This document shows positions 1 through 20,750 of a DNA stretch of 32,626 nucleotides, piece by piece. The DNA comes from a virus, in the IMG/VR virus record IMGVR_UViG_3300001460_000046, positions 1-32,626 of that record; one strand, written 5' to 3'. Made by a program: the position numbers and the translations under genes. The notes beneath the pieces are model-generated. The model did not search any database. It worked only from the letters and a program-made list of their open reading frames with translations, and was not told the origin of the DNA. Numbering within the stretch: position 1 is the stretch's first letter; each line of letters starts with the position of its first letter.

Positions 1-301
1 AAGCAGCTGTTAATCTTTTCTTTTTAATAGGGTCTTTTACTCTACCCTTTGCAGCTCTAACTCTTTGATGTATTAAATTTATAATTTGTGATTGCCTTGC
101 ATGAGATTTTGATTTAAAAGTTTTTTTAGTTAATGTATCTCTGATATCAGATGTGGTACTAAATTTTACCTTAACAGTATCTTTAGGATTTTCATCAGTA
201 TAAAGTCTTCTACTAGAACCTTTAGGTTTTTTACCTGTACCTTTCTTAGGATCTGCTTCTAATAGAATTTTTTCTACTAAAGTATCAAATTTTCTTACCA
301 T
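1..301 (-). CDS. Basic late protein with CTS-like N-terminus, incomplete at window edge
   Basis: A minus-strand reading frame starts with ATG at 301-299, overlapping the stop of the upstream gene (ATGGTAA), and stays open to base 1, giving 100 codons without a stop. The product starts MVRKFDTLVEKILLEADPKK and is rich in Lys/Arg (stretches such as KKGTGKKPKGSSRR and RVKDPIKKKR). I do not recognise the family. The first 15 residues form an amphipathic segment ending in ILLE, which fits the [L/I]xE site cut by the T4 prohead protease, so an internal head protein is a reasonable inference. The gene is translationally coupled to the other small basic protein upstream and probably uses its late promoter. 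The C-terminus lies outside the window. Confidence 0.75.
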   Translation of the reverse strand, partial: MVRKFDTLVEKILLEADPKKGTGKKPKGSSRRLYTDENPKDTVKVKFSTTSDIRDTLTKKTFKSKSHARQSQIINLIHQRVRAAKGRVKDPIKKKRLTAA

Positions 302-633
302 TTTCTGCATGACCAATATCTTGCCATAGTTTTAGGACCTGGATTATCACAATTATGCCTAGCTCTAAATGATTTACGAGCTTTAGGGTTACTTTTACGT
401 ATTTTCATTGTCTTTTCTCCACGTTTTTTTGCTGATGTACCGCCATGACCGAAGTTAACCTTCTTAACATTACCTGTTTTAGGATTTTTTACATAAACTT
501 TAAATTTCTTAACGTCACCTCTCATTGGTTTATTTAATTTTACTTTACGACCTCTATATTCAGCATCTTCAGATGATGCCATAACTGGCCCATATTCATT
601 TAAAAGTTCTATTACTAAATTATTAAACTGCAT
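295..633 (-). CDS. Small basic late protein with C-terminal Cys/aromatic signature
   Basis: 112 aa, first gene of a minus-strand late unit. The N-terminus MQFNNLVIELLNEYG is amphipathic and ends in LLNE, resembling a T4 capsid-targeting peptide with a [L/I]xE cleavage site. The body is strongly basic. The last ~30 residues carry a compact signature with RKSFRARHNCDN, a GPKT turn and ARYWSCRKW at the very end, with two Cys and one His that could bind metal or nucleic acid. I recall similar C-terminal signatures in proteins of marine T4-like phages and large viruses but cannot give a function. An AATAAATA late-promoter octamer sits exactly 5 nt before the ATG and no Shine-Dalgarno is present. 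Confidence 0.85.
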   Translation of the reverse strand: MQFNNLVIELLNEYGPVMASSEDAEYRGRKVKLNKPMRGDVKKFKVYVKNPKTGNVKKVNFGHGGTSAKKRGEKTMKIRKSNPKARKSFRARHNCDNPGPKTMARYWSCRKW

Positions 634-661: not shown

Positions 662-1216
662 ATGGATAAAGAAACTAATTTGATTTTTGAAAAATACAAA
701 CAAGTAAATGAAGCTTTAGGGTTAGGTCCTAATACACCTTCTATGATTCATATAAAAGTTGGTGAAACTAAAGCTTTGAGACCAAAAACTCAACCACCAA
801 CTGAAGATGAAATGGTTTTTATTCAAGCAGGTGATAAAGAAGAGGATTCAGATTGCGGTTGCGGAGGAGAATCTGAAGATGATTGCGGTTGCGATAGTAA
901 AGAAGGTAAAACAATTTATGATGGTGAATTAGATATGGCTAGATTAGAATTATTAAAAGCTAATGAATACGCTGCAAAACTTTTTCATCATATAGGTAAT
1001 CACCCTGATAGTGATTATTTAGAAGGCTGGGTTGCAAGTAAAATAACTAAAGCAGCTGATTATCTATCTTCTGTTTATCATTATCTAGATTATGAAGATA
1101 ATTTTGCTACTAGAGAACCTTGTTATAGCGATGAGGAAGAAAATGAAGACGAAGATCTAGAAATAGACGATGATGAAATGACTAAAACAGCTCGCGAGTC
1201 TGGTTTTGGTGCTTAA
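662..1216 (+). CDS. Acidic late protein with CGCGG/CGC cysteine clusters, probable virion protein
   Basis: 184 aa, strongly acidic. The N-terminus MDKETNLIFEKYKQVNEALG is helical with two hydrophobic-x-Glu sites (IFE, VNE). Residues ~60-77 carry two near-identical clusters, DCGCGG and DCGCD, encoded by a short direct repeat (GATTGCGGTTGCG twice) and separated by an acidic spacer; this could be a small metal-binding patch. The middle (LELLKANEYAAKLFHHIG, then LEGWVASKITKAADYL) is a helical segment of a type I recall in structural proteins of marine T4-like phages, but I cannot name the family. The tail is a run of Asp/Glu. The gene has a late promoter 5 nt before the ATG, and its TAA shares a TTAA double stop with the convergent gene. 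Confidence 0.8.
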   Translation: MDKETNLIFEKYKQVNEALGLGPNTPSMIHIKVGETKALRPKTQPPTEDEMVFIQAGDKEEDSDCGCGGESEDDCGCDSKEGKTIYDGELDMARLELLKANEYAAKLFHHIGNHPDSDYLEGWVASKITKAADYLSSVYHYLDYEDNFATREPCYSDEEENEDEDLEIDDDEMTKTARESGFGA

Positions 1217-3108
1217 ATTAACTTATTATCAAAAATACGTTTAATTTCTTCATCAAATGAACCGTAAAGATCAGTAATTAAGTTTCTTCTTAGTGTATCA
1301 TCACCTGATTTATAAAGATATCTAATTTCTGAAGCACTTCTTATATCTTTATCTAATATATCAAAATCCATAGTAGGTAATGTTACGATATATCCATGTT
1401 TATCTAAAGTTTCAGACTTATCTAAATTTTCAAAAGGTTGGAAGTAACTAGGAGTACCATTTTTCTTAGTCCCGAACTTAAATCTCGGTTTATCACCTTC
1501 CATATCTTTAGCTGATACTGCAAAAATAAGAATTGTATTATCTGCAGTGTAATCTTGAACGATTTCTTTAGCTAAATATGGATTTACTACTTTTTTAACA
1601 AAATTAGGGTCAATTCCAGAACTTTGTATCATTTGAACTTTTTCATCGTAAGTAAATGGTGATCTTTCTGGATCAGTCTTTTCAGAAGTTGATATAAAAA
1701 CGTCACCATTAGGAAATTCCTGTTTTAGTTTATTATAAACTGAAGCATGACCTTTATGAAAAGGGTGAAATCTACCAGGATATATAACTAATATTTTTTT
1801 AGTAACGTTATCATTAAATTCTTTTAAAAAATTATACATTTCACCAAAGGTATCTATAGAATGTCTTAATCTGGTACCTTCCCCAGTGTTAAATACTGGA
1901 GGGTTATTAATATAATTTTCTTCATCACTTGGTTTACCTGCTAAAAAATTAGCTCTACTAAATTCTAACCTATCTACTAATTTTATTGCATTACCATCTC
2001 TATCAATTGCTACATACCCTTCAGGAGAGGTTACTTTTAATGTACCATCACCGTTATCTATAAAATGTTTAGTAGTATATACAGCATTATTATATTTGTT
2101 TATAAAAATTTGTTTAGCATCAGAAAGTAACTTACTTACTTTAAAGAGATTAATAATATTATCTTTATCTCTTTTTATTTCATTTAATTTTTTAGTATAT
2201 AGTAATTTAACCTTTGATTTACCAGTATCACTTTTTCTTTTAGCAATTTCTCTTTCCATTCTACCTAAAAACCAATTTATAAAACTATTATAAGAATCTT
2301 CAGGGTCTTTTAAGTATTCCCCTTCTTTAATTTCTACATTAGTGTAGATGTTTATAAGATCTAAAGGTAAGTCATTATAATCTACGTTTATACCATCTAC
2401 AACATTTAAAATACCTTTTATTTGCTCTGACTCATCTTTAGTTAAAGTAACTACACCAGTATCATCTTTAAAATAAGCATCGTCAACCCAAATATCATTA
2501 ACTTCATTTAAATTATCAATTTTAGCACCAAATCTAGCACCACCACCTAAATCATCATACTCAGTATGAAATATAATACCAAATTTAGATTCTTTTACCT
2601 TTTTACCTAACTCAGAATCTTCTTCAATAGCATATTTTATTGTATTTGGTTTAAAAGTTATATGAGAAGTACCATCTATATCTTCTATTCTTTTAGATGA
2701 ATCATCAAACATAAAATCACCTTGTAAGATATTTTTTATACCTAATTGAGGTAAGTATTTTAATGCTTTTTTAAGTTTATCAGCTAAACCTGGTGAACTA
2801 CCATGATTTAAATCAATATCACTCTCTGTATAATTAAACTTAGGGTTCATATTGAAAATAGATTTAGTACCAACAAAAAACTTACCGTTTTCAGGATTAA
2901 TACCTGCAAATAATGCTGGTGCTCCGTCCCATTTAACTGTAGTACCTATTCTACCACTGTTAGTTTCAAGATGATTTAATAAATCATGTATAAATTTTCT
3001 TGCTAATGTATATCCATCTTTACCCTTTTTAAGAATAAGTTCTTCTAAATGAGTTAAATGAGTATTAGCCTTTTTCTGCTCAGTAATATATTGTTTTAAT
3101 GTTTTCAT
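1213..3108 (-). CDS. Two-domain protein: ligase-like KxDG domain plus HxGH nucleotidyltransferase, CTS-like N-terminus
   Basis: 631 aa from the ATG at 3108, which overlaps the upstream stop (ATGA) and follows AGGAT; a start at 3129 would add MYPCRIK without such support. Residues 1-10, MKTLKQYITE, closely resemble the T4 internal-protein capsid-targeting peptide (MKTYQEFIAE) and end in ITE, a prohead-protease-type site. Residues 59-62 are KWDG, the motif I pattern of covalent nucleotidyltransferases (DNA/RNA ligases), followed by LQGDFMF (~128-134) and FGIIFHTEYD (~176-185), plausible for motifs III and IIIa. From about residue 437 a Rossmann-like nucleotidyltransferase begins: ILVIYPGRFHPFHKGH (HKGH at 451-454) with a late SASEIR segment like the SxTxxR motif of NadM/TagD-type enzymes. 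Substrates are unknown. It is the last gene of a late operon. Confidence 0.85.
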   Translation of the reverse strand: MKTLKQYITEQKKANTHLTHLEELILKKGKDGYTLARKFIHDLLNHLETNSGRIGTTVKWDGAPALFAGINPENGKFFVGTKSIFNMNPKFNYTESDIDLNHGSSPGLADKLKKALKYLPQLGIKNILQGDFMFDDSSKRIEDIDGTSHITFKPNTIKYAIEEDSELGKKVKESKFGIIFHTEYDDLGGGARFGAKIDNLNEVNDIWVDDAYFKDDTGVVTLTKDESEQIKGILNVVDGINVDYNDLPLDLINIYTNVEIKEGEYLKDPEDSYNSFINWFLGRMEREIAKRKSDTGKSKVKLLYTKKLNEIKRDKDNIINLFKVSKLLSDAKQIFINKYNNAVYTTKHFIDNGDGTLKVTSPEGYVAIDRDGNAIKLVDRLEFSRANFLAGKPSDEENYINNPPVFNTGEGTRLRHSIDTFGEMYNFLKEFNDNVTKKILVIYPGRFHPFHKGHASVYNKLKQEFPNGDVFISTSEKTDPERSPFTYDEKVQMIQSSGIDPNFVKKVVNPYLAKEIVQDYTADNTILIFAVSAKDMEGDKPRFKFGTKKNGTPSYFQPFENLDKSETLDKHGYIVTLPTMDFDILDKDIRSASEIRYLYKSGDDTLRRNLITDLYGSFDEEIKRIFDNKLI

Positions 3109-3644
3109 CTTGATCCTACAAGGGTACAATCCCAGCCTCCACCATCAGCTCTATGACCGAAATCTAATACACCTTTTAAATTATTTATTTGAATATAAAA
3201 ATCACTAATATTAGTTAAATTTTTCATATTTACAGACTGTAAAGCTAGATCATTACCAATATTATTAAAAGCTAAAAAATTATCAAACCCTTGAGCTTTT
3301 TTATATTCAAATAACTGTACAACACCACCTATATACCTTAATAGATTAACTCCAAGTTTAGCAGACTTACCTCTTAATTTACCTTTCCGTAAGAAATAAT
3401 CTCTTTCTACTACTAATCTATCATATAAATTATTATTTTTAGCTAATTCTATTATTTCACCTTTAGAATCCGGTACACCGCAATAGTGAGCTATAAACTC
3501 GCATATTAATTCAAGTTGTTGATTATCATCTTTACCTTCCTCTTGTAGTTTTTCAAAATTAGTTTTTAAAGCTGCTGTCTTAAACATTCTACCACTAGGA
3601 CCTTTTAATTCTACTTCTAAACCACCGGTACTTAAATCACCTTT
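3105..3644 (-). CDS. 3' part of frameshifted possible PD-(D/E)xK nuclease
   Basis: This frame continues the protein broken at the A5 run on the minus strand (3646-3642). It reads KGDLSTGGLEVELKGPSGRMF and then about 160 further residues, ending GGGWDCTLVGSR. The GD..(8)..ExK arrangement (Asp, then ELK) is the signature layout of PD-(D/E)xK nucleases. There is no credible start or ribosome site of its own: an internal ATG at 3587 exists but cuts off the conserved motif. The TGA overlaps the start of the KxDG/HxGH gene (ATGA). It should be read together with the 5' part as one protein of about 340 aa. Confidence 0.75.
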   Translation of the reverse strand, partial: KGDLSTGGLEVELKGPSGRMFKTAALKTNFEKLQEEGKDDNQQLELICEFIAHYCGVPDSKGEIIELAKNNNLYDRLVVERDYFLRKGKLRGKSAKLGVNLLRYIGGVVQLFEYKKAQGFDNFLAFNNIGNDLALQSVNMKNLTNISDFYIQINNLKGVLDFGHRADGGGWDCTLVGSR

Positions 3645-9756: not shown

Positions 9757-11558
9757 AATACGTAAAATTTAAAGATTTAAAAATAAGGAATTTTTTATCA
9801 GTAGGTGAAGATGTCGTTAATATAGGTTTTGAAAAAGGCTTGCATATTGTAACCGGTATTAATAGAGATAAAGAAGATAGGAGAAACGGTGTCGGTAAGA
9901 GTACTGTAGCTGATGCTTTATATTTTGCTATATTTGGACAGACTTTAAGAGATTTAAAAAAGAATTTTATAGCTAATAATCTTACTGGTGGTACTTGTGA
10001 AGTACAATTATCATTTACTGTTGACGATCCTAAGCACGGGGTTAATGAGTTTGATATAATTAGAACTTTAAACCCATCTAAGTGCTATGTATATAAAAAC
10101 GGTAATGATAAGACCAGAGATAGTATAACTAATACAAACGAATATATAGGTACAGTTTTATCTGCTACTCCTGAGATATTTCAAAATTGTGTTATAATGA
10201 CTCTTAATAATCATATACCTTTTATGGCTAAGAATAAAACTGAAAAACGTAAGTTTATTGAGCAAATTTTTAACTTAGAGATATTTAGTAAAATGCTTTT
10301 TGAATTAAGAAATGAGCATAATGAAGTTAAGAAAAATTTTGATATTGAAATAACTCGATTAGAAGAAACTAATAATTATTTAACTACTCAAAAAACGCAT
10401 AGAGACAATTTTAATAATGATCAAGAAAATAAAATAAAATCATTAAAAGATACTATTCAAGTTCATAAAAATGATTTAAAAGAAACGCAGGATAAACTCT
10501 CTGATATTGAAGCTTTAGATGATCAACCTTATAAAGATAAATTAGTAGAATTAGAAACTAAGTTAACTCAGAGTACTGGAGATAAAGAAGAAGCAAATCG
10601 TCAATGTATTGAACAAACTCAAATTATAAAAACTAATGCTGAAAATCTTAAAAAATTAGGAACTGAAGAAGATACATGCCCTGTTTGTTTGAGACCTATT
10701 GAAGAGCATGATAAAGAAAAAATAGAAGAAGAAAAAGAGTATATTAGAAAGTTTTTAGTTGGGGAAAAGCAAGGAGTAGAAGCTTGTTTAAAGAAGATAG
10801 AAGAATTAAATGGTGAAATAACTAAAATAAATTCAGCTATAAAAATGGTTAATAATAAAATTAATGATATAGGTAATAAAAAATATGGTATTGATCATAT
10901 TAAAGATTCGGTAGTTTATATTGAAAAATGTATTACGGAAATTGAAACTGAATTAGACGGAGTTAAAAATGAAAAGAATACATTTTCAAACGCAGTTAAT
11001 GAATTACAGCAAAAAGTAGATAATATTAAAAATGAAATTAGTAGTCTTAAGAAGGTAATTAATTTGATGGATGTTGTAAAGTTTGTAGTAAGTGAAGAAG
11101 GGGTAAAAAGTTTTATAGTTAAAAAAATATTATCTCATTTTAATAGTAAGTTAACTCACTTTCTTAAAAAACTAGATAGTAACTGCGTTTGTATGTTTAA
11201 TGAATATTTTGAAGAAGAAATTGTCAATGAAAAAGGAAAAATAAGTCTATATAATAATTTTTCAGGAGCTGAAAGAAAAGCTATTGATTTAGCATGCTTA
11301 TTTTCATTTATGGATATGAGAAAAGCACAAGGTGATGTACATTATAATATTAGTTTTTATGATGAGTTATTTGATAGTAGTTTAGATGAAAAGGGAGTTG
11401 AGTTAGTTTTAGAAATTTTAAATGAAAGAGTAGATAAATTAAATGAATGCGTTATGGTGATAAGTCATAGAAAAGAGAGTATTAAATCTGCAACTGGTGA
11501 TATTATATTTTTAGAAAAACATAATGGCATTACTAAGAGAGTTAGTTTTATTGATTGA
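9753..11558 (+). CDS. gp46: gp46-like (Rad50-type) recombination ATPase
   Basis: 601 aa. Walker A is NGVGKST (~45-51); a coiled-coil arm surrounds the zinc-hook CPVC (309-312); the ABC signature is FSGAERKAIDLA, and the Walker B-type stretch is ISFYDELFDSSLDEKG. This is the SMC-like ATPase partner of gp47. The arms (about 190-300 and 320-440) are rich in Lys/Glu heptads. The length is slightly above T4 gp46 (560 aa). Transcription probably comes from the upstream uvsY/gp55 promoters. Confidence 0.94.
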   Translation: MKYVKFKDLKIRNFLSVGEDVVNIGFEKGLHIVTGINRDKEDRRNGVGKSTVADALYFAIFGQTLRDLKKNFIANNLTGGTCEVQLSFTVDDPKHGVNEFDIIRTLNPSKCYVYKNGNDKTRDSITNTNEYIGTVLSATPEIFQNCVIMTLNNHIPFMAKNKTEKRKFIEQIFNLEIFSKMLFELRNEHNEVKKNFDIEITRLEETNNYLTTQKTHRDNFNNDQENKIKSLKDTIQVHKNDLKETQDKLSDIEALDDQPYKDKLVELETKLTQSTGDKEEANRQCIEQTQIIKTNAENLKKLGTEEDTCPVCLRPIEEHDKEKIEEEKEYIRKFLVGEKQGVEACLKKIEELNGEITKINSAIKMVNNKINDIGNKKYGIDHIKDSVVYIEKCITEIETELDGVKNEKNTFSNAVNELQQKVDNIKNEISSLKKVINLMDVVKFVVSEEGVKSFIVKKILSHFNSKLTHFLKKLDSNCVCMFNEYFEEEIVNEKGKISLYNNFSGAERKAIDLACLFSFMDMRKAQGDVHYNISFYDELFDSSLDEKGVELVLEILNERVDKLNECVMVISHRKESIKSATGDIIFLEKHNGITKRVSFID

Positions 11559-11589: not shown

Positions 11590-12825
11590 ATGATAGTAGG
11601 TAACCATCCAATGAATCAATCGCCGTTTGCGGTTAAAACGCCCTTCCAAACTAATATTGCACCACAACAAATGCAATCAGGTCCTAAACAACCTCAAGCA
11701 CCTGAACAACCACCTGAAGCAGCTTTACCTCGCTTTTTAAATTATTATGCTGATTATTCAGGATGCGGTCATTGGAGAATGATATGGCCAGAGCAAGTAA
11801 TGAATGCGCATAGTAAAGCAGTGGTACATGGTTCTACAGTAATGAATGTAGACCCTCGATACTACGTCGATGTCAAAGGTGTGCGTATACAGAGACAAGC
11901 TACTCCACAGCAGTTAGAGTTTGTTAAATGGTTACGTCAAATAGCTGATAAAGAAGGTTTTAGATTAATTTATGAAATTGATGATATTTGTTTTTCTGAA
12001 GATATTCCTGACTATAACAAATATAAAACTGCATTTACAGATCCAGCAATTAGAAAATCAGCTCAAGAAATGATGTCAATGTGTGATGAAATTACAGTAA
12101 CATGCCCATTCATGAGAGATTATTATAAGGAAAAGACCGGTAATAAAAACGTTACAGTTATACCTAATTTTATGCCTAAATTTTGGATAGATAGATTTTA
12201 CGATCATAACCGTACGATGGAGAGTTTTGAGAAAAATAAAAGAAAACCAAGAATATTATATGCTGGTTCAGGAGCACATTTTGATGTAGAAAACAGAGTT
12301 AAACAGAGAGATGATTTTCATCATGTATTGCAAGTTATTGCAAATACTGTAGATGAATTTCAATGGGTATTTTTAGGTGCTTTTCCACTTTCATTAAGAC
12401 CGTTAGTTGATGCAGGAAAGATTGAATTTCATCCATGGAGAAGATTATTTGAATATGGTAAGGGTATATATGATCTAAATGTTAATATGATGGTTGCTCC
12501 TTTGGAAGATAATATTTTTAATAGATCTAAGTCTGATTTAAAATATATTGAAGCAAGTGCTTTTGGTATACCTATTGCATGCCAAGATATGTGTACATAT
12601 GAAAATGCACCTATTAAATTTAAGACTGGTCATGAAATGGTTGATCAAATAAGAAAAACATTATCTGATAGAAAAAGATATAAAGCTTTATGTAGAAAAG
12701 GAAGACAGTATGCAGAAACTAGATGGTTAGAAGATGACCGTAATATTGATTGTTATACTGAACTTTATCAATACGGAGTAGATGATCCTAGAAGAGTTAA
12801 TCTTAATAGATACAATTTAGATTAA
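11590..12825 (+). CDS. GT4-like glycosyltransferase with Pro/Gln-rich N-terminus
   Basis: 411 aa. The first ~45 residues are a disordered Pro/Gln-rich tail (NIAPQQMQSGPKQPQAPEQP). The rest is a GT-B fold: DEITVTCPFMRDYY and VTVIPNFMPKFW in the first half, RILYAGSGAHFDVE starting the second Rossmann domain, and RSKSDLKYIEASAFGIPIAC, the E-x7-E-type nucleotide-sugar site of GT4 enzymes. The acceptor is unknown; phage DNA, virion protein or host surface glycan are all possible. The tail and late-type promoter make association with the virion conceivable. It ends in a TTAA double stop with the convergent gene. Confidence 0.8.
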   Translation: MIVGNHPMNQSPFAVKTPFQTNIAPQQMQSGPKQPQAPEQPPEAALPRFLNYYADYSGCGHWRMIWPEQVMNAHSKAVVHGSTVMNVDPRYYVDVKGVRIQRQATPQQLEFVKWLRQIADKEGFRLIYEIDDICFSEDIPDYNKYKTAFTDPAIRKSAQEMMSMCDEITVTCPFMRDYYKEKTGNKNVTVIPNFMPKFWIDRFYDHNRTMESFEKNKRKPRILYAGSGAHFDVENRVKQRDDFHHVLQVIANTVDEFQWVFLGAFPLSLRPLVDAGKIEFHPWRRLFEYGKGIYDLNVNMMVAPLEDNIFNRSKSDLKYIEASAFGIPIACQDMCTYENAPIKFKTGHEMVDQIRKTLSDRKRYKALCRKGRQYAETRWLEDDRNIDCYTELYQYGVDDPRRVNLNRYNLD

Positions 12826-13048: not shown

Positions 13049-15604
13049 GTGAGTTACCGTAATATATATTATGATTCGAGAGAAAGATGTGTCCATTTGT
13101 TTACTTGGGATAAAGATGGTAAAAGAATTAAAGTTACCAATTCGTTTGACCCTTACTGCTATTTAGAAGGTAAAGGAGATGCTGAGTCTATATATGGTAC
13201 TAAATTAGTTAAGAAAATTTTCAATACTCAGTATGATAGATATAAGTATTTGAAAGATACTAATATAAAAAGAGTTTTTGAAAACTTACCTGCAACTCAA
13301 CAGTACTTAGTTGATACTTTTTGGAAAGAAAATGAGAAGCCTGAGTTTAGTAAAAACCCTATTAAAGTTTTATTTTTAGATATTGAGACTTATTCACCCG
13401 ATGAGTTTCCTAAACCTGCTGACCCGACTCATACAGTTAATGTTATAACTTGTTTTGACTCATTAAACGGTAGATATACAACTTTTGGTTTAAAAGACTA
13501 CGATAATAAAGATGATGATGTAGTATATCATAAATGTGAGTCTGAAAGAGATTTATTTAAAAAGTTTGTAATGTATATTGAGAAGGATTATCCGGATATC
13601 ATGAGTGGATGGAATTCTGAATTTTTTGATTTACCGTATATTTTGAATAGATGTACTAGAATACTTGGCGAAGAATGGACTAATAGATTATCTCCTTCTG
13701 GTAGAGTTTATAGCAGAACTATAAAAGGTATGTTTGGTGTAGAACAAGTTAGATGGTATATTGAAGGTATGTCGTTAATTGATTACTTAGATGTATATAA
13801 ACGTTTTTCAGTCGGTGTTAAAGAAAGTTATAAGTTAGATAATATCGGTGCTACTGAGTTAGGAGAACAGAAAGTAGATTTTGGTAATATGAATCTTGCA
13901 ACGCTATCAGATAATGATTGGCAAACGTTTGTAGAATATAATATTCAAGACGTTAGACTGCTAGCTAAGTTAGAAGAAAAACTAAAGTATACTGAGCTTA
14001 TTAAAATGTTAGCTTATGTTGGTTTAACTACGTTTGAAGCTGCTCTAGGTTCATTATCGGTTATTAATGGGGCAACTGCAGTAAGGGCAAGATATCGTGA
14101 TCAAAAGATTCCATCGTTTATACGAAATGAAGATACAGGTAAAAATCCTGGTGCCTATGTTGGTGAACCTTTGAAAGGATTTCAAGAAAATATTATATCT
14201 TTTGATGCTAATTCTCTATATCCGAATGTGATGATATCTCTTAATATGTCTCCTGAAACTAAAGTAGCTAAAATAGAAGATAAAAATAATTCTGAGATAG
14301 TTTTAAGACATGTAAATGGTCAAGTGTTTAGTTTAAAGCATGATAAATTTTTAGAGTTCTGTAAAAAAGAGCAGATAGCTATTAGTAAAGCAAACGTTTT
14401 ATTTACTCAAAAACGTAAAGGGGTTATGCCTGAAATTTTAGACTATTATTATAATGAAAGAGTTAAAATTAAAAAAGAACTTGGTACTATAAAAAGAGAG
14501 TATTCTAAAACTAAAAACGATAAACTTAAATTTAAAATAGAACAACTTGATGCTAAGCAGTTGTGTATAAAAGTTTTTATTAATTCAATTTATGGTTATT
14601 TTGGTAATAAAAATGCACCGTTTGGGGATGATGATATTGCTTCATCAATTACTTTAACTGGTCAATCAGTTATTAAAAAATCTAATGATTTATTAAAAGA
14701 ATATATAAAACGAAAAACTAAAATAGAAGATGATAAAATCCTTAATCAATGTATTGTATATAACGATACTGATAGTAGTTATATTTCAGTTAAGCCTCTT
14801 ATTACAGCTGGTCTTTCGTTTACTGGTGATGACGGTAAATTAACTCAAGAGTTTTTTAATGAGGTACAAAATATTGAAGACTTCTTAAATGATGAAATTA
14901 AAGTATGGGGTAGAAAAGCTCTAAATAGTAGAGATTGTAGATTCGTGTTTAAACGTGAGGTAATTGCAGATGTAGGTATCTTTCTACAAAAGAAAAGATA
15001 CGTTCTTCACATATTAGATGATGAAGGTATACCTATGGATAAGTATAAGTATACCGGAGTAGAAGTAGTAAGAAGTACTATGCCTGATGCTATTAAACCT
15101 CATGTTAAAAATATTATTGAAACTATGCTTTCAACTCAAAATATTGGTGAGACTAATAAAGCATTAGATAACGTTTATAAAATTTTTAAAGATCTACCTG
15201 TGGAAGATATAACGTTTGTATCAGGTATTAAAGGTTATGAAAGATACGCAGGTCAATGCGATGGTTATAAAACTGCTAAAGGTATGCCTATTCACGTTAA
15301 AGCAGCATACTTCCATAATTTAATTTTAAAAAGACTTGGAGTTGAGAATAAGTATGAAACTATCAGTTCAGGTGATAAGGTAAGATACTTCTACGTAGAG
15401 CATCCTAACCCTTATAATTTATCATGCATTGCTTATAAGTATTACTACCCTGAAGAGTTTAAGAAAATATTTCATGCAGATTATGATAAGATGTTTGAAA
15501 AGATTCTATATAATGTAATTGAAAGATTTTATGATAACGTTAATTGGACTCCTCAGAAACCTGGTAGTGCAGTTCAGACTAATTTATTTGAACTCTTAAG
15601 TTAA
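13049..15604 (+). CDS. gp43: DNA polymerase gp43 (family B)
   Basis: 851 aa, GTG start 6 nt after TATAAT. 3'-5' exonuclease motifs: DIETYSPDEFP (Exo I), WNSEFFDLPYI (Exo II), YNIQDVRLLAKLE (Exo III). Polymerase motifs: FDANSLYPNVMI (motif A), KVFINSIYGYFGNK (motif B) and YNDTDSSY (motif C). The length is near T4 gp43 (898 aa). The C-terminus QTNLFELLS is in the place where T4 gp43 has its clamp-binding tail and probably binds gp45. All catalytic motifs are intact. Confidence 0.97.
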   Translation: MSYRNIYYDSRERCVHLFTWDKDGKRIKVTNSFDPYCYLEGKGDAESIYGTKLVKKIFNTQYDRYKYLKDTNIKRVFENLPATQQYLVDTFWKENEKPEFSKNPIKVLFLDIETYSPDEFPKPADPTHTVNVITCFDSLNGRYTTFGLKDYDNKDDDVVYHKCESERDLFKKFVMYIEKDYPDIMSGWNSEFFDLPYILNRCTRILGEEWTNRLSPSGRVYSRTIKGMFGVEQVRWYIEGMSLIDYLDVYKRFSVGVKESYKLDNIGATELGEQKVDFGNMNLATLSDNDWQTFVEYNIQDVRLLAKLEEKLKYTELIKMLAYVGLTTFEAALGSLSVINGATAVRARYRDQKIPSFIRNEDTGKNPGAYVGEPLKGFQENIISFDANSLYPNVMISLNMSPETKVAKIEDKNNSEIVLRHVNGQVFSLKHDKFLEFCKKEQIAISKANVLFTQKRKGVMPEILDYYYNERVKIKKELGTIKREYSKTKNDKLKFKIEQLDAKQLCIKVFINSIYGYFGNKNAPFGDDDIASSITLTGQSVIKKSNDLLKEYIKRKTKIEDDKILNQCIVYNDTDSSYISVKPLITAGLSFTGDDGKLTQEFFNEVQNIEDFLNDEIKVWGRKALNSRDCRFVFKREVIADVGIFLQKKRYVLHILDDEGIPMDKYKYTGVEVVRSTMPDAIKPHVKNIIETMLSTQNIGETNKALDNVYKIFKDLPVEDITFVSGIKGYERYAGQCDGYKTAKGMPIHVKAAYFHNLILKRLGVENKYETISSGDKVRYFYVEHPNPYNLSCIAYKYYYPEEFKKIFHADYDKMFEKILYNVIERFYDNVNWTPQKPGSAVQTNLFELLS

Positions 15605-16122: not shown

Positions 16123-17223
16123 ATGAGTAAAGAAATTGATGATGTGTTATCTGTAATAGATAAAAGTAATCCGTATGCTTCCTTTTTAAATGAAAGTGCT
16201 CTTAGCAACGTTGATGGTTGGTTAGATACCGGGTCCATGGTACTGAATGGTATAGTATCAGGTTCACTTTTTGGAGGTATACCTAAAAATAGAATGACCC
16301 TTTTAGCTGGACCTAGCATGACTGGTAAGAGTTTTATCTTACAGAAGATATTAGCTAATGCGCAGAAAGAAGGTATTACACCTGTTATATTTGATAGTGA
16401 AAATGCTATTGATAAAGAAGGTGCTGCTGCATTAGGTTTAGATGTAAGTAAAGTAAAATATGTACCTGTTTTTAGTATTGAAGAATGTCGTAATACTATT
16501 TTTGACTTCCTTACTAAAGTAAAAGAAAAAGGTCAAGAAGGTAAGTTTATTATAGCTATTGATTCGTTAGGTAATATGGAGAGTCAATTGCAGATTAATC
16601 GTCAGACAAAAGGTAATGTAAGTGCTGATATGGGTAGTAGAGCTAAAGCTATGAAATCTTTACTACGTACTCTTACCCAATTATCTGGGTTAACTAAAAC
16701 TACTATTCTAGCTACTAATCATATCTATGAAGACCCTGCCGCATTATTTCCATCATTAGTTAAAGCAATGCCTGGAGGTACTGCTACTGTTTATCTACCT
16801 TCAGTTACTATTCAGTTAGCTCGTAAGCCTGTTAAAGAAGATAAAAATACTGATGGTAAGTTAGCTGTTGGTCAAAAGAACTATTCAGGTGTTATATTAA
16901 GAGCGTTAACTGTAAAAAATAGATTTGTAAAGCAATACTTGCAAGGTGAAATGTATCTATCATTTGATAAAGGTCTTAATAAGTATTACGGTTTATTAGA
17001 CTTAGCAGTAGGTTTAGGTGCTGTTATTCAGACCGGTTCTACTTATCAATTACCTGATGAAACAAAATTAGGTTATTATTCAAAATGGAAAGATAATACG
17101 GAACTGTGGGATAATACTATTATACCTGTTATAGAAGAAAAGATTAAACAAGAATGGAAATATAGTAATAAATCAGAGGAAGAAGAATTAATACCTGATG
17201 AAGTAGATCATGAAGAAGAATAA
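16123..17223 (+). CDS. uvsX: UvsX-like RecA-family recombinase
   Basis: 366 aa (T4: 391). Walker A GPSMTGKS (~64-71), the RecA-like VIFDSENAIDKEGA segment and IAIDSLGN as Walker B. It forms filaments on ssDNA and carries out strand exchange with UvsY and gp32. The C-terminus is acidic (EEEELIPDEVDHEEE). Transcription starts after a terminator, so it is separated from gp43. The 3' end overlaps the QueC-like gene by 14 nt. Confidence 0.95.
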   Translation: MSKEIDDVLSVIDKSNPYASFLNESALSNVDGWLDTGSMVLNGIVSGSLFGGIPKNRMTLLAGPSMTGKSFILQKILANAQKEGITPVIFDSENAIDKEGAAALGLDVSKVKYVPVFSIEECRNTIFDFLTKVKEKGQEGKFIIAIDSLGNMESQLQINRQTKGNVSADMGSRAKAMKSLLRTLTQLSGLTKTTILATNHIYEDPAALFPSLVKAMPGGTATVYLPSVTIQLARKPVKEDKNTDGKLAVGQKNYSGVILRALTVKNRFVKQYLQGEMYLSFDKGLNKYYGLLDLAVGLGAVIQTGSTYQLPDETKLGYYSKWKDNTELWDNTIIPVIEEKIKQEWKYSNKSEEEELIPDEVDHEEE

Positions 17224-17962
17224 AATAGTAATAACGTTAAGTGGTGGAATGGACTCTGCAGTTCTTTTATATAAAGCTGCAGAAGAATATAATGAAGTAC
17301 ATACTGTTACTTTTGATTACGGTCAAAGGCATCATAGAGAATTAATTTCTGCAGAGAAGCAACTCTTAAATGTTCGTCATGATTTTCCTAATGTAGTTTT
17401 TACTAATAAAATATTAGATGCAAAATATATTAAAAATATAGCACCGGTATCATCTCTTACTAATGATGATATTGATACCCCTAATGTTAAGGATGTGATG
17501 GGTGAAGCTCAGCCGAAAAGCTATGTACCTTTTCGTAACTTAATGTTTTTAAGTATCTTATTATCATATGCTGAAGCTTTAAAAGCAGAAGAAGTTTGGT
17601 ACGGTGCAGCAGAAGCTGATAGTTTAGCTGGTTACTGGGATGGCTCCGTTCAGTTTGTAGATAAAATGAATCAAATATGTTTATTAAACCGTGAAGTCGA
17701 TGTAAGAGTTAGAGCTCCTCTCTTAGAAATGAGTAAGAAGGAAATTATTTTAAATGGTATTGAATTAGGTGTTAATTTTGCTGATACTTCTTATACCTGT
17801 TATTCCGGAGAATATCCTTGTGATGCTGAATCAGCAAGTAGTGCATTAAGACTTAAAGGGTTTGTAGATGCAGGTTTTAGAGATCCTTTAGTATATAAAC
17901 AGCAGGATAAGCTTAATAAAGTTTACGATAGTAGCAATTGTAAGAATATAGTTACTGACTAG
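17210..17962 (+). CDS. queC: QueC-like PP-loop ATPase (7-cyano-7-deazaguanine synthase family)
   Basis: 250 aa. The PP-loop SGGMDS (11-16), the VTFDYGQRHHRE segment, YVPFRNLMFLSI and the LRLKGFVDAGFRDPLVY end are diagnostic for QueC, which converts carboxy-deazaguanine to preQ0 with ATP and ammonia. The usual zinc site is altered: the first Cys (YTCY) remains, but the two Cys of the terminal CxxC before LR are Ser (ASSALRLKGF) and the third is displaced by one residue. A changed or structural-zinc-independent enzyme is likely. It overlaps uvsX and lies 1.3 kb from a separate class II glutamine amidotransferase, the partner fused to QueC in archaeosine-type enzymes. QueD, QueE, FolE and DpdA are not in this window. 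Confidence 0.88.
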   Translation: MKKNKIVITLSGGMDSAVLLYKAAEEYNEVHTVTFDYGQRHHRELISAEKQLLNVRHDFPNVVFTNKILDAKYIKNIAPVSSLTNDDIDTPNVKDVMGEAQPKSYVPFRNLMFLSILLSYAEALKAEEVWYGAAEADSLAGYWDGSVQFVDKMNQICLLNREVDVRVRAPLLEMSKKEIILNGIELGVNFADTSYTCYSGEYPCDAESASSALRLKGFVDAGFRDPLVYKQQDKLNKVYDSSNCKNIVTD

Positions 17963-19233
17963 TAACCGTGTCTAAACATTCTTTCAATTTGATGATGCCT
18001 ATGCATCTCATTTCTACCTCTTTCAATCATATCTATATTAATTTGTTGAGGTGATAATGCAATTTCTTCATTATCTTCTTCAGATTCTGATTCTACTTCA
18101 TCATTATATACTTTCATAAGACTTTTATAAGTTTCAGGTGATTTACTATGCAAATCTTTTAAAACTTTTTTAGCTTCATCTTCTTTACCCTTTTTAAGTA
18201 ATTCGTAAAATGTATCATGTAAATCAATTACTTCATTATCTTCTTCTTCATCACAAGTTTCTTCATCACTTTTTCTTAATTTACCTGTAACTGGGCATCT
18301 TTCTGCATCTTCTTCTTGATCTTCATCTGAATCATCTTTTTCTTCAGATTTTTCCATTGCATCAGCAATAGCTTGACCTCTATTTTTTTCATACTCTGAA
18401 AGTTCACCGTCATTATCAAGATCTGATTTTTCTTTATCTATTTCAGCATCTTCTTCATGACTATGACCACCAATAGGTTGATCAGGGTCTATAGATTCAT
18501 CTCCAAACATTGTAGCTAATTCACGAGGATCCATTCTTTCGTCATTATAAACGTTACCTGGATAATCTTCTTCACCTTCTGGAAAGTCTGCTACTAATTT
18601 TTCTCTGGTACCCATGTCTATCTCTCCACCAAACTTATCAACCGTTTCTGTTTCACTTGGTTTAACAATAACAACTGATACGATGTCTTTTTTATCAATA
18701 TCATCTAAATTGATTTTGGTACCTTTGAAATTATTAAGAGTTACTCTGTATTTTAAACCATCTTTTACAATTGAATAAAGATCATTATCACCAACATCTC
18801 CTTCTGATCTTAATACAGCATCATCACCTAAATTAAGTTGTAATGTTTCGAAACCTGTATCACCTCTTTTAAGATCACTTTCGGCAGCTCCTTTTTCTCT
18901 AGTAGTAATTTTAATATCACCTCTTGTAGCTAAAGGTTTAGATACGTTAGAAACGATATTAATAGCTTGTTGAACATCATCATCAGAAAGACTTTCAATA
19001 TCTAACTCAGGATTTTGCTTTTGCAAAAATCTAATTACTTTAGTAGCAAAATATCTTGGTGTCATTGTACCTTTTAAATTTCTTATATCTTGCATACCCA
19101 TTAATTTTGCTCTCAATGGATCTGATATTTTCTTACCCCTTGCTTCTTCAACAACGTCGTAATCTTGACCCATCATATAATTAGATGTATCTTCAACAAT
19201 AATCTTTTTTTCTTTCCAGTTATCTAAACTCAT
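17959..19233 (-). CDS. Acidic EF-hand late protein
   Basis: 424 aa, very acidic. Start: ATG at 19233, 5 nt after AATAAATA. The N-terminus MSLDNWKEKKIIVEDTSNYM contains an IVE site at residue ~14, compatible with the capsid-targeting pattern. Residues 271-282, DLDNDGELSEYE, are a complete EF-hand calcium loop (Asp at 1, 3 and 5, Gly 6, Glu 12). A following stretch has CPVTGKLRKSDEETC. The N-terminal 100 residues are helical, and the middle holds beta-type segments (KYRVTLNNFKGTKIN). The length, composition and promoter fit a structural or internal head protein; no family recognised. Confidence 0.8.
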   Translation of the reverse strand: MSLDNWKEKKIIVEDTSNYMMGQDYDVVEEARGKKISDPLRAKLMGMQDIRNLKGTMTPRYFATKVIRFLQKQNPELDIESLSDDDVQQAINIVSNVSKPLATRGDIKITTREKGAAESDLKRGDTGFETLQLNLGDDAVLRSEGDVGDNDLYSIVKDGLKYRVTLNNFKGTKINLDDIDKKDIVSVVIVKPSETETVDKFGGEIDMGTREKLVADFPEGEEDYPGNVYNDERMDPRELATMFGDESIDPDQPIGGHSHEEDAEIDKEKSDLDNDGELSEYEKNRGQAIADAMEKSEEKDDSDEDQEEDAERCPVTGKLRKSDEETCDEEEDNEVIDLHDTFYELLKKGKEDEAKKVLKDLHSKSPETYKSLMKVYNDEVESESEEDNEEIALSPQQINIDMIERGRNEMHRHHQIERMFRHGY

Positions 19234-19238
19234 AATAT

Positions 19239-19246
19239 TATTTATT
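19239..19246 (-). promoter_or_regulatory. Late promoter octamer AATAAATA
   Basis: Minus-strand AATAAATA, then ATATT (5 nt), then the ATG at 19233. It overlaps the -35 box of the divergent amidotransferase promoter. Confidence 0.65.
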
Positions 19247-19272
19247 GAATTTTGATAATTTTATACTATAAT
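19245..19272 (+). promoter_or_regulatory. Sigma70-like promoter of the amidotransferase gene
   Basis: TTGAAT (19245-19250), 16-nt spacer, TATAAT (19267-19272), 5 nt to the ATG at 19278. Confidence 0.7.
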
Positions 19273-19277
19273 AAGTT

Positions 19278-19949
19278 ATGTGCGGAATATTTTGTAGTAA
19301 TGATCTTAATACGTTTGAAGTATTAGAACAAGCAAATAGAAAAAGAGGTAACTTTTCTACAGGAATATTTTATATGTATAATACGTCTACATATAAAATT
19401 ATCAAAAAGGAAGGCGGGTTTAATTTTGATGATAATACTCTACCACATGGCAAAGGGTTTTTATATCTTGGGCATAATCAAGCTCCTACTCAAACAGGTA
19501 GACAATGGGAAGATGTTAATTCTCATCCCTTTTCATATGGTGATTGGTTTGTAGCTCATAATGGAGTTATAACTAATTTTGATGAATTAGTAGATAATCA
19601 TTCTAAATTTCATACCAATCCTGTAGATTCTAGTATTATACCAGGTTTATTAGACGAATTTGAATATGCTAAAGGACCTTGTGAAAACCCAAAAGATGAA
19701 CAAAAATTGATAAAAAGAGTATTAGAAAAATTAGAAGGTACATTTGCTGTTTGGATTGTTAATATTAAAACTATGAATGTTTATATAGCAAGACAAGGTA
19801 GTACTTTGTTTTATAAAGGAAGTAATATATCATCTGTTAAAGGTAAGCATTATAGAGAAGTGAAAGAAGGTATATTATATAGTTACTCTTATGAAGGTTT
19901 AACTAAAGTTAATACTTTCAAGAATAAATCACCATTTTTAACGTTATGA
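19278..19949 (+). CDS. Stand-alone class II glutamine amidotransferase
   Basis: 223 aa. Starts MCGIF, so Cys2 is the N-terminal nucleophile after Met removal; RGNFSTG and LGHNQAPT (Arg/Asn region), NSHPFSYGDWFVAHNGVITN (the HNG motif) and LEGTFAVWIVN complete the Ntn-hydrolase fold. It releases ammonia from glutamine but lacks any synthetase domain, so it needs a partner. The nearest ATP-using partner is the QueC-like PP-loop protein at 17210-17962; together they look like a split version of a Gat-QueC fusion. Partnering with another enzyme outside the window cannot be excluded. Confidence 0.9.
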   Translation: MCGIFCSNDLNTFEVLEQANRKRGNFSTGIFYMYNTSTYKIIKKEGGFNFDDNTLPHGKGFLYLGHNQAPTQTGRQWEDVNSHPFSYGDWFVAHNGVITNFDELVDNHSKFHTNPVDSSIIPGLLDEFEYAKGPCENPKDEQKLIKRVLEKLEGTFAVWIVNIKTMNVYIARQGSTLFYKGSNISSVKGKHYREVKEGILYSYSYEGLTKVNTFKNKSPFLTL

Positions 19950-20437
19950 ATATAAGACAAGCAAAATTAAAAAATTTACAAGAAATAGAAAAAATACATT
20001 TTATGCATTTTGTGTATAAAAATACCGATTCATTTATAATGAATACGTTCGGCCATGTATGGTCTAGTAGAGATTGGTGGGATAAATTTCCTATACAAGT
20101 ATGTTTAGATGAAAATAATAAAGTTTTAGGATTACATGCATATACAGTTAATGATAAAAAACCTAAAACTCTTAAAACGTATTATATAGTAACTGAAAAA
20201 AATACAAGAGGTAAAGGTATTGCAAGAATACTAATAACAAATGCTATTATCGAAAATAAAGATAAGGTAGATAATTACTATGTTAATACTGATAAGAATA
20301 GTGATGGAGCTTTATTTTATTTGAAATGGTTAGGTAATAATTTTAAGAAAGAAAAGAATGATTTTAATTCAGAAGATATGATCTTCGAGGAACCGATTTA
20401 TAATATAATAGATGAAGAAGCTAAAGACGACAGGTAA
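19946..20437 (+). CDS. GNAT-type N-acetyltransferase
   Basis: 163 aa. It begins MNIRQAKLKNLQEIEKIH, as many GNAT domains do, and has the acetyl-CoA loop TRGKGIARILI (R-x-x-G-x-G/A) with the strand before it (KTYYIVTE). The late aromatic segment SDGALFYLKWLGNNF matches the usual C-terminal part. The substrate is unknown. It overlaps the amidotransferase by 4 nt (ATGA) and the following gene by 26 nt, so the three are co-translated. Confidence 0.8.
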   Translation: MNIRQAKLKNLQEIEKIHFMHFVYKNTDSFIMNTFGHVWSSRDWWDKFPIQVCLDENNKVLGLHAYTVNDKKPKTLKTYYIVTEKNTRGKGIARILITNAIIENKDKVDNYYVNTDKNSDGALFYLKWLGNNFKKEKNDFNSEDMIFEEPIYNIIDEEAKDDR

Positions 20438-20750
20438 ACCGCGTCAGTTTGATACTGGTGCTCAAAGAGATGCTGCAGATGATAAACTTCGTATGAGTTT
20501 AGTCCCTCATAAAGCTCTTAATGATGTTATGATGAGATACTTGCAAGGTGCTAATACTTACGGAGAAAATAATTGGAAAAAAGGTATGAAGCATTCTATA
20601 CTATATGATAGTACTATGAGACATTTAATGCAAGACTTTACAGGAGATGATAGTGAAGATCATTTAGGAGCTGCATTATGGAATGTTATGGGTATGATAT
20701 GGAATAGAGATAATCGAAAAGATATGGATGATAGGAAAGATTATGAGTAA
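20412..20750 (+). CDS. dATP/dGTP diphosphohydrolase-like (DUF5664-type) protein
   Basis: 112 aa. Sequence FDTGAQRDAADDKLRMSLVP followed by RYLQGANTYGENNWKKGM, a pair of conserved helices, and HLMQDFTGDDSEDHLGAALWN. The pattern (GAxRD....R..L.P, Y....NW.KG, D...GDDsEDHL.A..WN) is that of the phage family often annotated as dATP/dGTP diphosphohydrolase N-terminal domain or DUF5664. The ED-H Glu/Asp/His cluster would bind metal and triphosphate. A role in adjusting purine dNTP pools is inferred from the family. Confidence 0.75.
   Translation: MKKLKTTGKPRQFDTGAQRDAADDKLRMSLVPHKALNDVMMRYLQGANTYGENNWKKGMKHSILYDSTMRHLMQDFTGDDSEDHLGAALWNVMGMIWNRDNRKDMDDRKDYE

Follow-up and report, generated by a model that had tools for sequence, protein, structure and literature searches.

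The 7-deazaguanines found in phage DNA protect it against restriction and, in phage CAjan, require dpdA, according to the passages on these bases in PMC6884629. The same passages give dG+ as the product of fused phage Gat-QueC acting with DpdA, as in phage 9g, and report for the DNA of vibriophage nt-1 mainly dPreQ0 (0.11% of G) together with trace amounts of dADG and dG+. For vibriophage 6E351A, which we took by name to be MW824377 (Vibrio phage 6E35.1a), the 7-deazaguanine passages of PMC12028318 describe ~15% of dG as altered to a form whose mass fits dPreQ1. QueC enzymes known so far use free ammonia (PMC13329287). Here we analyse a 32,626-nucleotide window, bases 1-32626 of the 44,934-bp uncultured virus record IMGVR_UViG_3300001460_000046, in which a QueC-like gene lies close to a gene for a free-standing class II glutamine amidotransferase (GAT). 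We think it fairly probable that the two are neighbouring parts of a phage 7-deazaguanine DNA-modification pathway, in which a glutamine-dependent QueC, QueF and a DpdA-like enzyme would yield mainly dPreQ1 and block restriction.

Results

A QueC-like protein and a free amidotransferase

The QueC-like protein (17210-17962, plus strand, 250 aa) is a PP-loop ATPase of the 7-cyano-7-deazaguanine synthase family, scoring 168 bits against PF06508 (cut-off 22, E 2.6e-49) and 155.5 bits against TIGR00364, the QueC equivalog model (cut-off 150.3). Its first codons overlap the 3′ end of uvsX. Read against the canonical motifs of PF06508 cluster 1, which were taken from PMC13329287 and the PDB match, it keeps SGGMDS, YGQRHHRE (YGQRHxxE), VPFRN and the conserved K (within SKKEI) as the counterparts of SGGxDS, YxQxHxxE, VPxRN and K. 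The GAT (19278-19949, plus strand, 223 aa) is an N-terminal nucleophile (Ntn) amidotransferase of a phage-specific GHxQAPT subfamily. It scores 34.1 bits against PF13522 GATase_6 (cut-off 27, E 3e-8), its profile matches the glutaminase domains of GlmS/GFAT and PurF in the PDB (E 1.6e-10), and Foldseek matches its AlphaFold model (pLDDT 70.5) to GlmS/GFAT and PurF as well (3e-9). The Cys2 nucleophile and the HNG oxyanion motif are invariant across 14 GAT relatives. The two genes are 1.3 kb apart on the plus strand with a single minus-strand open reading frame (ORF) between them, and the sequence-family, profile and fold matches bear out the preliminary description of this DNA as encoding a QueC-like protein and a free class II amidotransferase separated by one opposite-strand gene.

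A GAT alignment, used to scan viral contigs, found 80 loci with identities as low as 40%. QueC lies upstream of GAT on the same strand, at a gap of 0.9-3.0 kb, at every viral locus with enough upstream sequence (60/60); at the remaining 20, no more than 1.4 kb of contig precedes GAT. A tblastn search with KVP40.0125 returned 51 records, comprising KVP40- and nt-1-type vibriophages, Pseudomonas phage pf16 (two records) and Vibrio phage 2.275.O. In KVP40, nt-1, pf16 and 2.275.O, annotation or matches place QueC immediately next to GAT, and according to the feature list it touches the match in most of the other rows. Independent support for the pairing is that the link persists in phages with different surroundings, and the QueC-GAT pairing is real, beyond chance. 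A genome scan found no cellular member of the GHxQAPT family; three weak archaeal matches were set aside, as none of them comes with QueC and the one inspected looks like a GlmS-type protein.

The window GAT and the KVP40-type GATs have HxQAPT in common, and R-containing motifs are found in fused Gat-QueC and in other phage amidotransferases. In profile comparison by hhalign, the marine GATs reach a probability of 99.3 with the KVP40-type GAT and 98.3 with the fused Gat domain. The deep branches of the GAT tree are not resolved; marine and KVP40-type GATs are therefore grouped by these profile scores and the shared motif. The maximum-likelihood tree of QueC places the GAT-associated QueCs (marine, KVP40, nt-1, pf16 and 2.275.O) in one clade (98/97) and the fused Gat-QueCs in a separate one (100/100). 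The fused phage proteins carry YGC and Y/F-x-D-N; the window QueC has YGQ and YWDG (YWD[GS] in relatives). The window genes match the two halves of phrog_10428 and are two ORFs, not one polypeptide; judged by its clade and signatures, the pair is not a cut-up Gat-QueC. We also considered loss of QueC zinc cysteines as a sign of Gat fusion and rejected it, since fused Gat-QueCs retain them.

Some QueC loci met along the way stand apart from this pair. The immuto-type QueC (L077, 18001-18882, and L177-L179) has no zinc cysteines (SDYKSASS) and falls in a clade other than that of the window QueC; L177-L179 have no GAT within ~1.4 kb. Vibrio phage GR7B has two successive genes both annotated as 7-cyano-7-deazaguanine synthase (L264, 2489-4079), the latter of them highly divergent in the QueC tree. 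A record named Acinetobacter phage MD-2021a (L267, CAKLQH020000006.1) contains a stretch that resembles a bacterial chromosome (dapD, queE, queC, bcp).

Other genes of the proposed pathway

In a longer record of 78,260 bp, IMGVR_UViG_3300025120_014869 (G001), window base 1 corresponds to G001 17,555; because its proteins are 99-100% identical to those of the window, we treated it as the same virus. Left of the window, G001 carries QueE (9873-10610, minus strand; found by reading G001 and by phrog_2076), QueD (11696-12373, minus strand) and the GTP cyclohydrolase IB FolE2 (13704-14747, plus strand; NF010200, 280 bits, cut-off 215). All three are also present in six related records (G002, G003, G005, G006, G010 and G015). 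Pfam Radical_SAM matches in G002, G006, G010 and G016 were considered as QueE and rejected. No FolE (PF01227) was found in the records searched, FolE2 being present in its place.

The Pfam TGT model has no match in the window's own 44.9-kb record or in 16 related records. Reading the 185-kb relative G002 revealed a DpdA-like protein of 268 aa, belonging to phrog_19058, whose function PHROG lists as unknown. The Pfam model misses this protein despite its TGT fold: the top 50 PDB matches of its AlphaFold model (mean pLDDT 91.3) are all TGTs (E 4e-9). It is 51% identical to the annotated DpdA of Flavobacterium phage immuto, which is sited among FolE, QueD, QueE and QueF, and shares 48-49% identity with proteins from the Campylobacter phages CP21 and CP220. 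The family, which keeps LLDNSIFELG-like and IRSxDTSNP-like stretches, occurs in G002, G010 and G012 (all at E ~1e-65) and in G017, that is, in every relative long enough, and each of these four has QueF close by. The QueF of G002 has the NADPH motif ESKSIKLY(FN) and the catalytic Cys and Asp (CRVTSQPD), and by these motifs it is a genuine nitrile reductase, not QueF-L. No archaeosine synthase (ArcS) domain was found in 11 records. The suggestion that 7-deazaguanine chemistry is aimed at the phage DNA is supported by FolE2, QueD and QueE on G001, the DpdA-like gene of the long relatives and the conserved QueC-GAT pair, and the accompanying proposal to search the genome for DpdA, QueD, QueE and FolE gave a positive answer, with FolE2 for FolE and the DpdA-like gene coming from relatives.

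Several other genes were noted around the pathway. On G001, QueE adjoins a 216-aa phrog_3704 protein labelled ferredoxin (L073, 9219-9869, minus strand), which is 98.6% identical between G001 and G002, the adjacent QueE being only 83% identical. In G002, a spermidine-synthase-like ORF and two AdoMet-decarboxylase-like ORFs, assigned by eye, are inserted beside QueE (L066, G002 64404-65935) and are absent from G001. The same genome encodes a protein like IMP dehydrogenase/GMP reductase (L071, G002 164970-165992; phrog_9582, E 7.5e-69); this is an enzyme of purine metabolism in a guanine-modifying phage. It also has several radical SAM proteins other than QueE within a sugar/glycosyltransferase-like region (G002 76203-81809); non-QueE radical SAM proteins occur in G006, G010 and G016 too.

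The surrounding genes

The window virus is a marine T4-like phage. The gene content, in part assigned by eye, is that of a T4-like myovirus: a uvsX/RecA-type protein, a DnaB-type helicase, a gp32-type single-stranded DNA-binding protein, DNA polymerase, the large terminase, and sheath and tube proteins. The gene between QueC and GAT (17959-19233, minus strand) encodes an acidic protein of 424 aa with no Pfam or PHROG match; it has no counterpart between QueC and GAT in three related loci (L016, L023 and L026), is variable in relatives and is probably outside the pathway. A GNAT acetyltransferase gene (19946-20437, plus strand; PF00583, E 5.8e-6) overlaps the 3′ end of GAT by 4 bases and is unmatched in L016, L023, L026 and L042, relatives that keep QueC and GAT. 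A glycosyltransferase-like gene lies downstream of GAT and GNAT. A scan for promoters and terminators around the QueC/GAT region gave matches at chance level.

The preliminary description also pointed to a gene like a deoxynucleoside triphosphate (dNTP) hydrolase as a possible contributor to modified guanine. Such a gene is present nearby, encoding a 112-aa protein with a dATP/dGTP diphosphohydrolase N-terminal domain (20412-20750, plus strand; PF18909 dGTP_diPhyd_N, E 4.6e-19), and is a conserved neighbour at 76-91% identity in relatives. No link to modified guanine emerged from the analysis; DpdA-type enzymes exchange bases in finished DNA, so that no modified dNTP is needed. The conserved PF18909 protein is at most a candidate for a pathway role.

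Elsewhere in the window, a 638-aa protein (1213-3129, minus strand) has DUF6267 (PF19782) and a cytidylyltransferase-like domain (PF01467) in one chain. A run of small minus-strand proteins (L073 15732-17493 and window 2-633), many of them basic and with N-termini alike (e.g. MxxFKxFxE), may be internal virion peptides.

Discussion

In the pathway we propose, FolE2, QueD and QueE would convert GTP to 7-carboxy-7-deazaguanine, which QueC would carry through the amide to preQ0 using ammonia released from glutamine by the GAT, so that QueC and GAT would act as a two-subunit, glutamine-dependent QueC. QueF would turn preQ0 into preQ1, and the DpdA-like enzyme would swap guanine in the phage DNA for preQ1, giving mainly dPreQ1 and blocking restriction enzymes. 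A dedicated class II GAT next to QueC would most simply serve to supply ammonia from glutamine, and we infer from the sequences that the GAT is an active glutaminase that works, or is in contact, with QueC. The QueF and DpdA-like steps are presumably present in the window's own virus as in its long relatives. Because QueF is found in all of those relatives, dPreQ1 is the best prediction and the most likely base; dPreQ0 or dADG and dG+ are less probable. Both the final base and its role in this virus are inferred; by analogy with other modified phages, that role is probably restriction evasion.

A number of observations weigh against this proposal. In the class II amidotransferase superfamily an Arg binds the glutamine carboxylate. 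The corresponding position, which aligns with TRWAT of GFAT, is Gln in 80 of the 81 GAT sequences with the motif found and Leu in the other, which makes the donor or the activity of this protein uncertain, although its active site is conserved in other respects. Glutamine would be held differently, or the donor would be another compound; no feature of the system is less understood or more interesting. The QueC partner is altered too. The canonical substrate motif YPDC reads YWDG in the window and mostly YWDG or YWDS in relatives, with Y and D retained and C lost, and the zinc motif C(x)8CxxCxxC reads C(x)6C-DAESASS, so that two of the four zinc cysteines are gone. Nearly all marine GAT-associated QueCs have lost Cys 3 and Cys 4 of this motif, and those of the LADAxTPSSS type have lost Cys 2 as well (three gone); all zinc cysteines are intact in L172 and L173, members of the same clade. 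Because QueC as known so far draws on free ammonia, a glutaminase is not strictly required. The 60 loci do not count as 60 independent observations, as the synteny in most of them reflects descent within one phage group. Finally, phrog_19058 has no match on the 78-kb G001 and QueF was not found there, G001 and the 44.9-kb record both being incomplete. Contigs of the same metagenome that carry QueF and the DpdA-like gene belong to other strains, with overlaps only ~71-84% identical to G001, and joining them to it was rejected for that reason.

The altered residues could be taken further, to mean that QueCs of this clade, having lost the zinc site and the Cys of YPDC, function only in partnership with a GHxQAPT protein that accepts another donor in place of glutamine or has a new mode of glutamine binding. 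Such a pair would be a new kind of amide/nitrile synthase, and it might even couple some amine besides ammonia to the carboxylate of the deazaguanine, yielding an undescribed DNA base; we hold this to be distinctly improbable. A less radical departure is that the pathway is real and its main base is dPreQ0 or dADG, with QueF weak or lacking or the DpdA-like enzyme preferring another base. The window's own contigs have no QueF, nt-1 has mainly dPreQ0, and the nearest isolate homologues of the DpdA-like protein besides that of immuto come from Campylobacter phages such as CP21 and CP220, a host group whose phages are described as highly dADG-modified in the 7-deazaguanine passages of PMC6884629. 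Against this, all four long relatives examined have QueF near their DpdA-like gene, with NADPH and catalytic motifs kept in G002, and we think another main base unlikely.

The preliminary description favoured a different product, a split Gat-QueC in which GAT and QueC turn preQ0 into the amidine G+, so that the DNA carries archaeosine-type dG+. The fused phage protein does give dG+ with DpdA in the passages cited above (PMC6884629), the window pair matches both halves of phrog_10428, the profile of the marine GATs shows relatedness to the fused Gat domain, and nt-1, in which a free GAT adjoins QueC and the stretch between DpdA2 and QueC contains no QueF gene, has a trace of dG+ (0.02% of G). 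But the window QueC lies outside the Gat-QueC clade and is without YGC and Y/F-x-D-N, and the GAT lacks the Arg that the fused domain keeps and is nearer the KVP40-type free GAT. The relatives have genuine QueF and no ArcS was detected in 11 records, and among the phages in which the pair occurs and DNA was measured, 6E351A, with QueC, GAT and QueF, has dPreQ1 and nt-1 has mainly dPreQ0. QueC and GAT are adjacent in both, so their presence alone does not mean dG+. An amidine product is therefore not supported, and we regard it as rather improbable here. It is also conceivable that the GAT serves outside the deazaguanine pathway, in sugar or protein amidation with the adjacent acetyltransferase and glycosyltransferase, its proximity to QueC being mere synteny. 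The 4-base overlap with GNAT, the glycosyltransferase-like gene that follows and the GlmS-like character of the best family models for the GAT would fit this. Yet several loci without GNAT keep QueC and GAT, no SIS domain follows the GAT, and a related GAT lies directly beside QueC in KVP40, nt-1, pf16 and 2.275.O, where the surroundings are different and the annotated ones include FolE, QueF or DpdA2. We consider this very unlikely.

The chemistry of the pathway is already known; what appears to be new is a free GAT with a distinct motif that synteny links to QueC, together with loss of the QueC zinc site. Neither is mentioned in the 7-deazaguanine passages of PMC6884629, PMC8056088 and PMC12028318, within the open-licence literature, and the free GAT is annotated as a hypothetical protein in KVP40, nt-1 and pf16. 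If the GAT is truly a subunit of QueC, preQ0 synthesis in such phages would be glutamine-dependent, and a two-protein counterpart of Gat-QueC would exist that does not imply archaeosine. For the reading of genomes, the correction is that QueC plus Gat does not mean dG+. The comparison also offers a likely function for phrog_19058 in many marine phages and indicates that QueC persists after losing a zinc site regarded as its hallmark.

Among described systems, the KVP40/nt-1-type vibriophages (KVP40, nt-1 and 6E351A) resemble the window in having preQ0 genes, a related free GAT, a TGT-type inserter and a QueC of the same clade. Their GAT, with the motif GHVQAPT or CHVQAPT, directly follows QueC and is 24-27% identical to that of the window; KVP40 and 6E351A also have QueF. 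Unlike the window group, in which the QueC cysteines are lost, a reversed gene stands between the pair, the inserter is phrog_19058 and the cyclohydrolase is FolE2, these vibriophages keep the zinc cysteines, their GAT and QueC genes touch, and they use DpdA2 and FolE. The fused 9g-type phages (JenK1, R7M and MiCath) likewise combine a class II Gat with a QueC domain in a 7-deazaguanine pathway, but they do so in one protein of another QueC clade, with the Gat Arg kept (RAEPT), YGC and Y/F-x-D-N present and all zinc cysteines in place. Flavobacterium phage immuto shares with the window group its DpdA, QueC, QueD, QueE and QueF and a QueC without zinc cysteines; it differs in having no annotated GAT near QueC, FolE rather than FolE2, and a QueC of another clade. 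Campylobacter phages CP21 and CP220 (Firehammervirus) share the DpdA-like homologue and, in CP21, a QueC; the cysteines of the CP21 QueC are kept, unlike those of the window, and tblastn with three GAT queries gave no GAT match in either phage.

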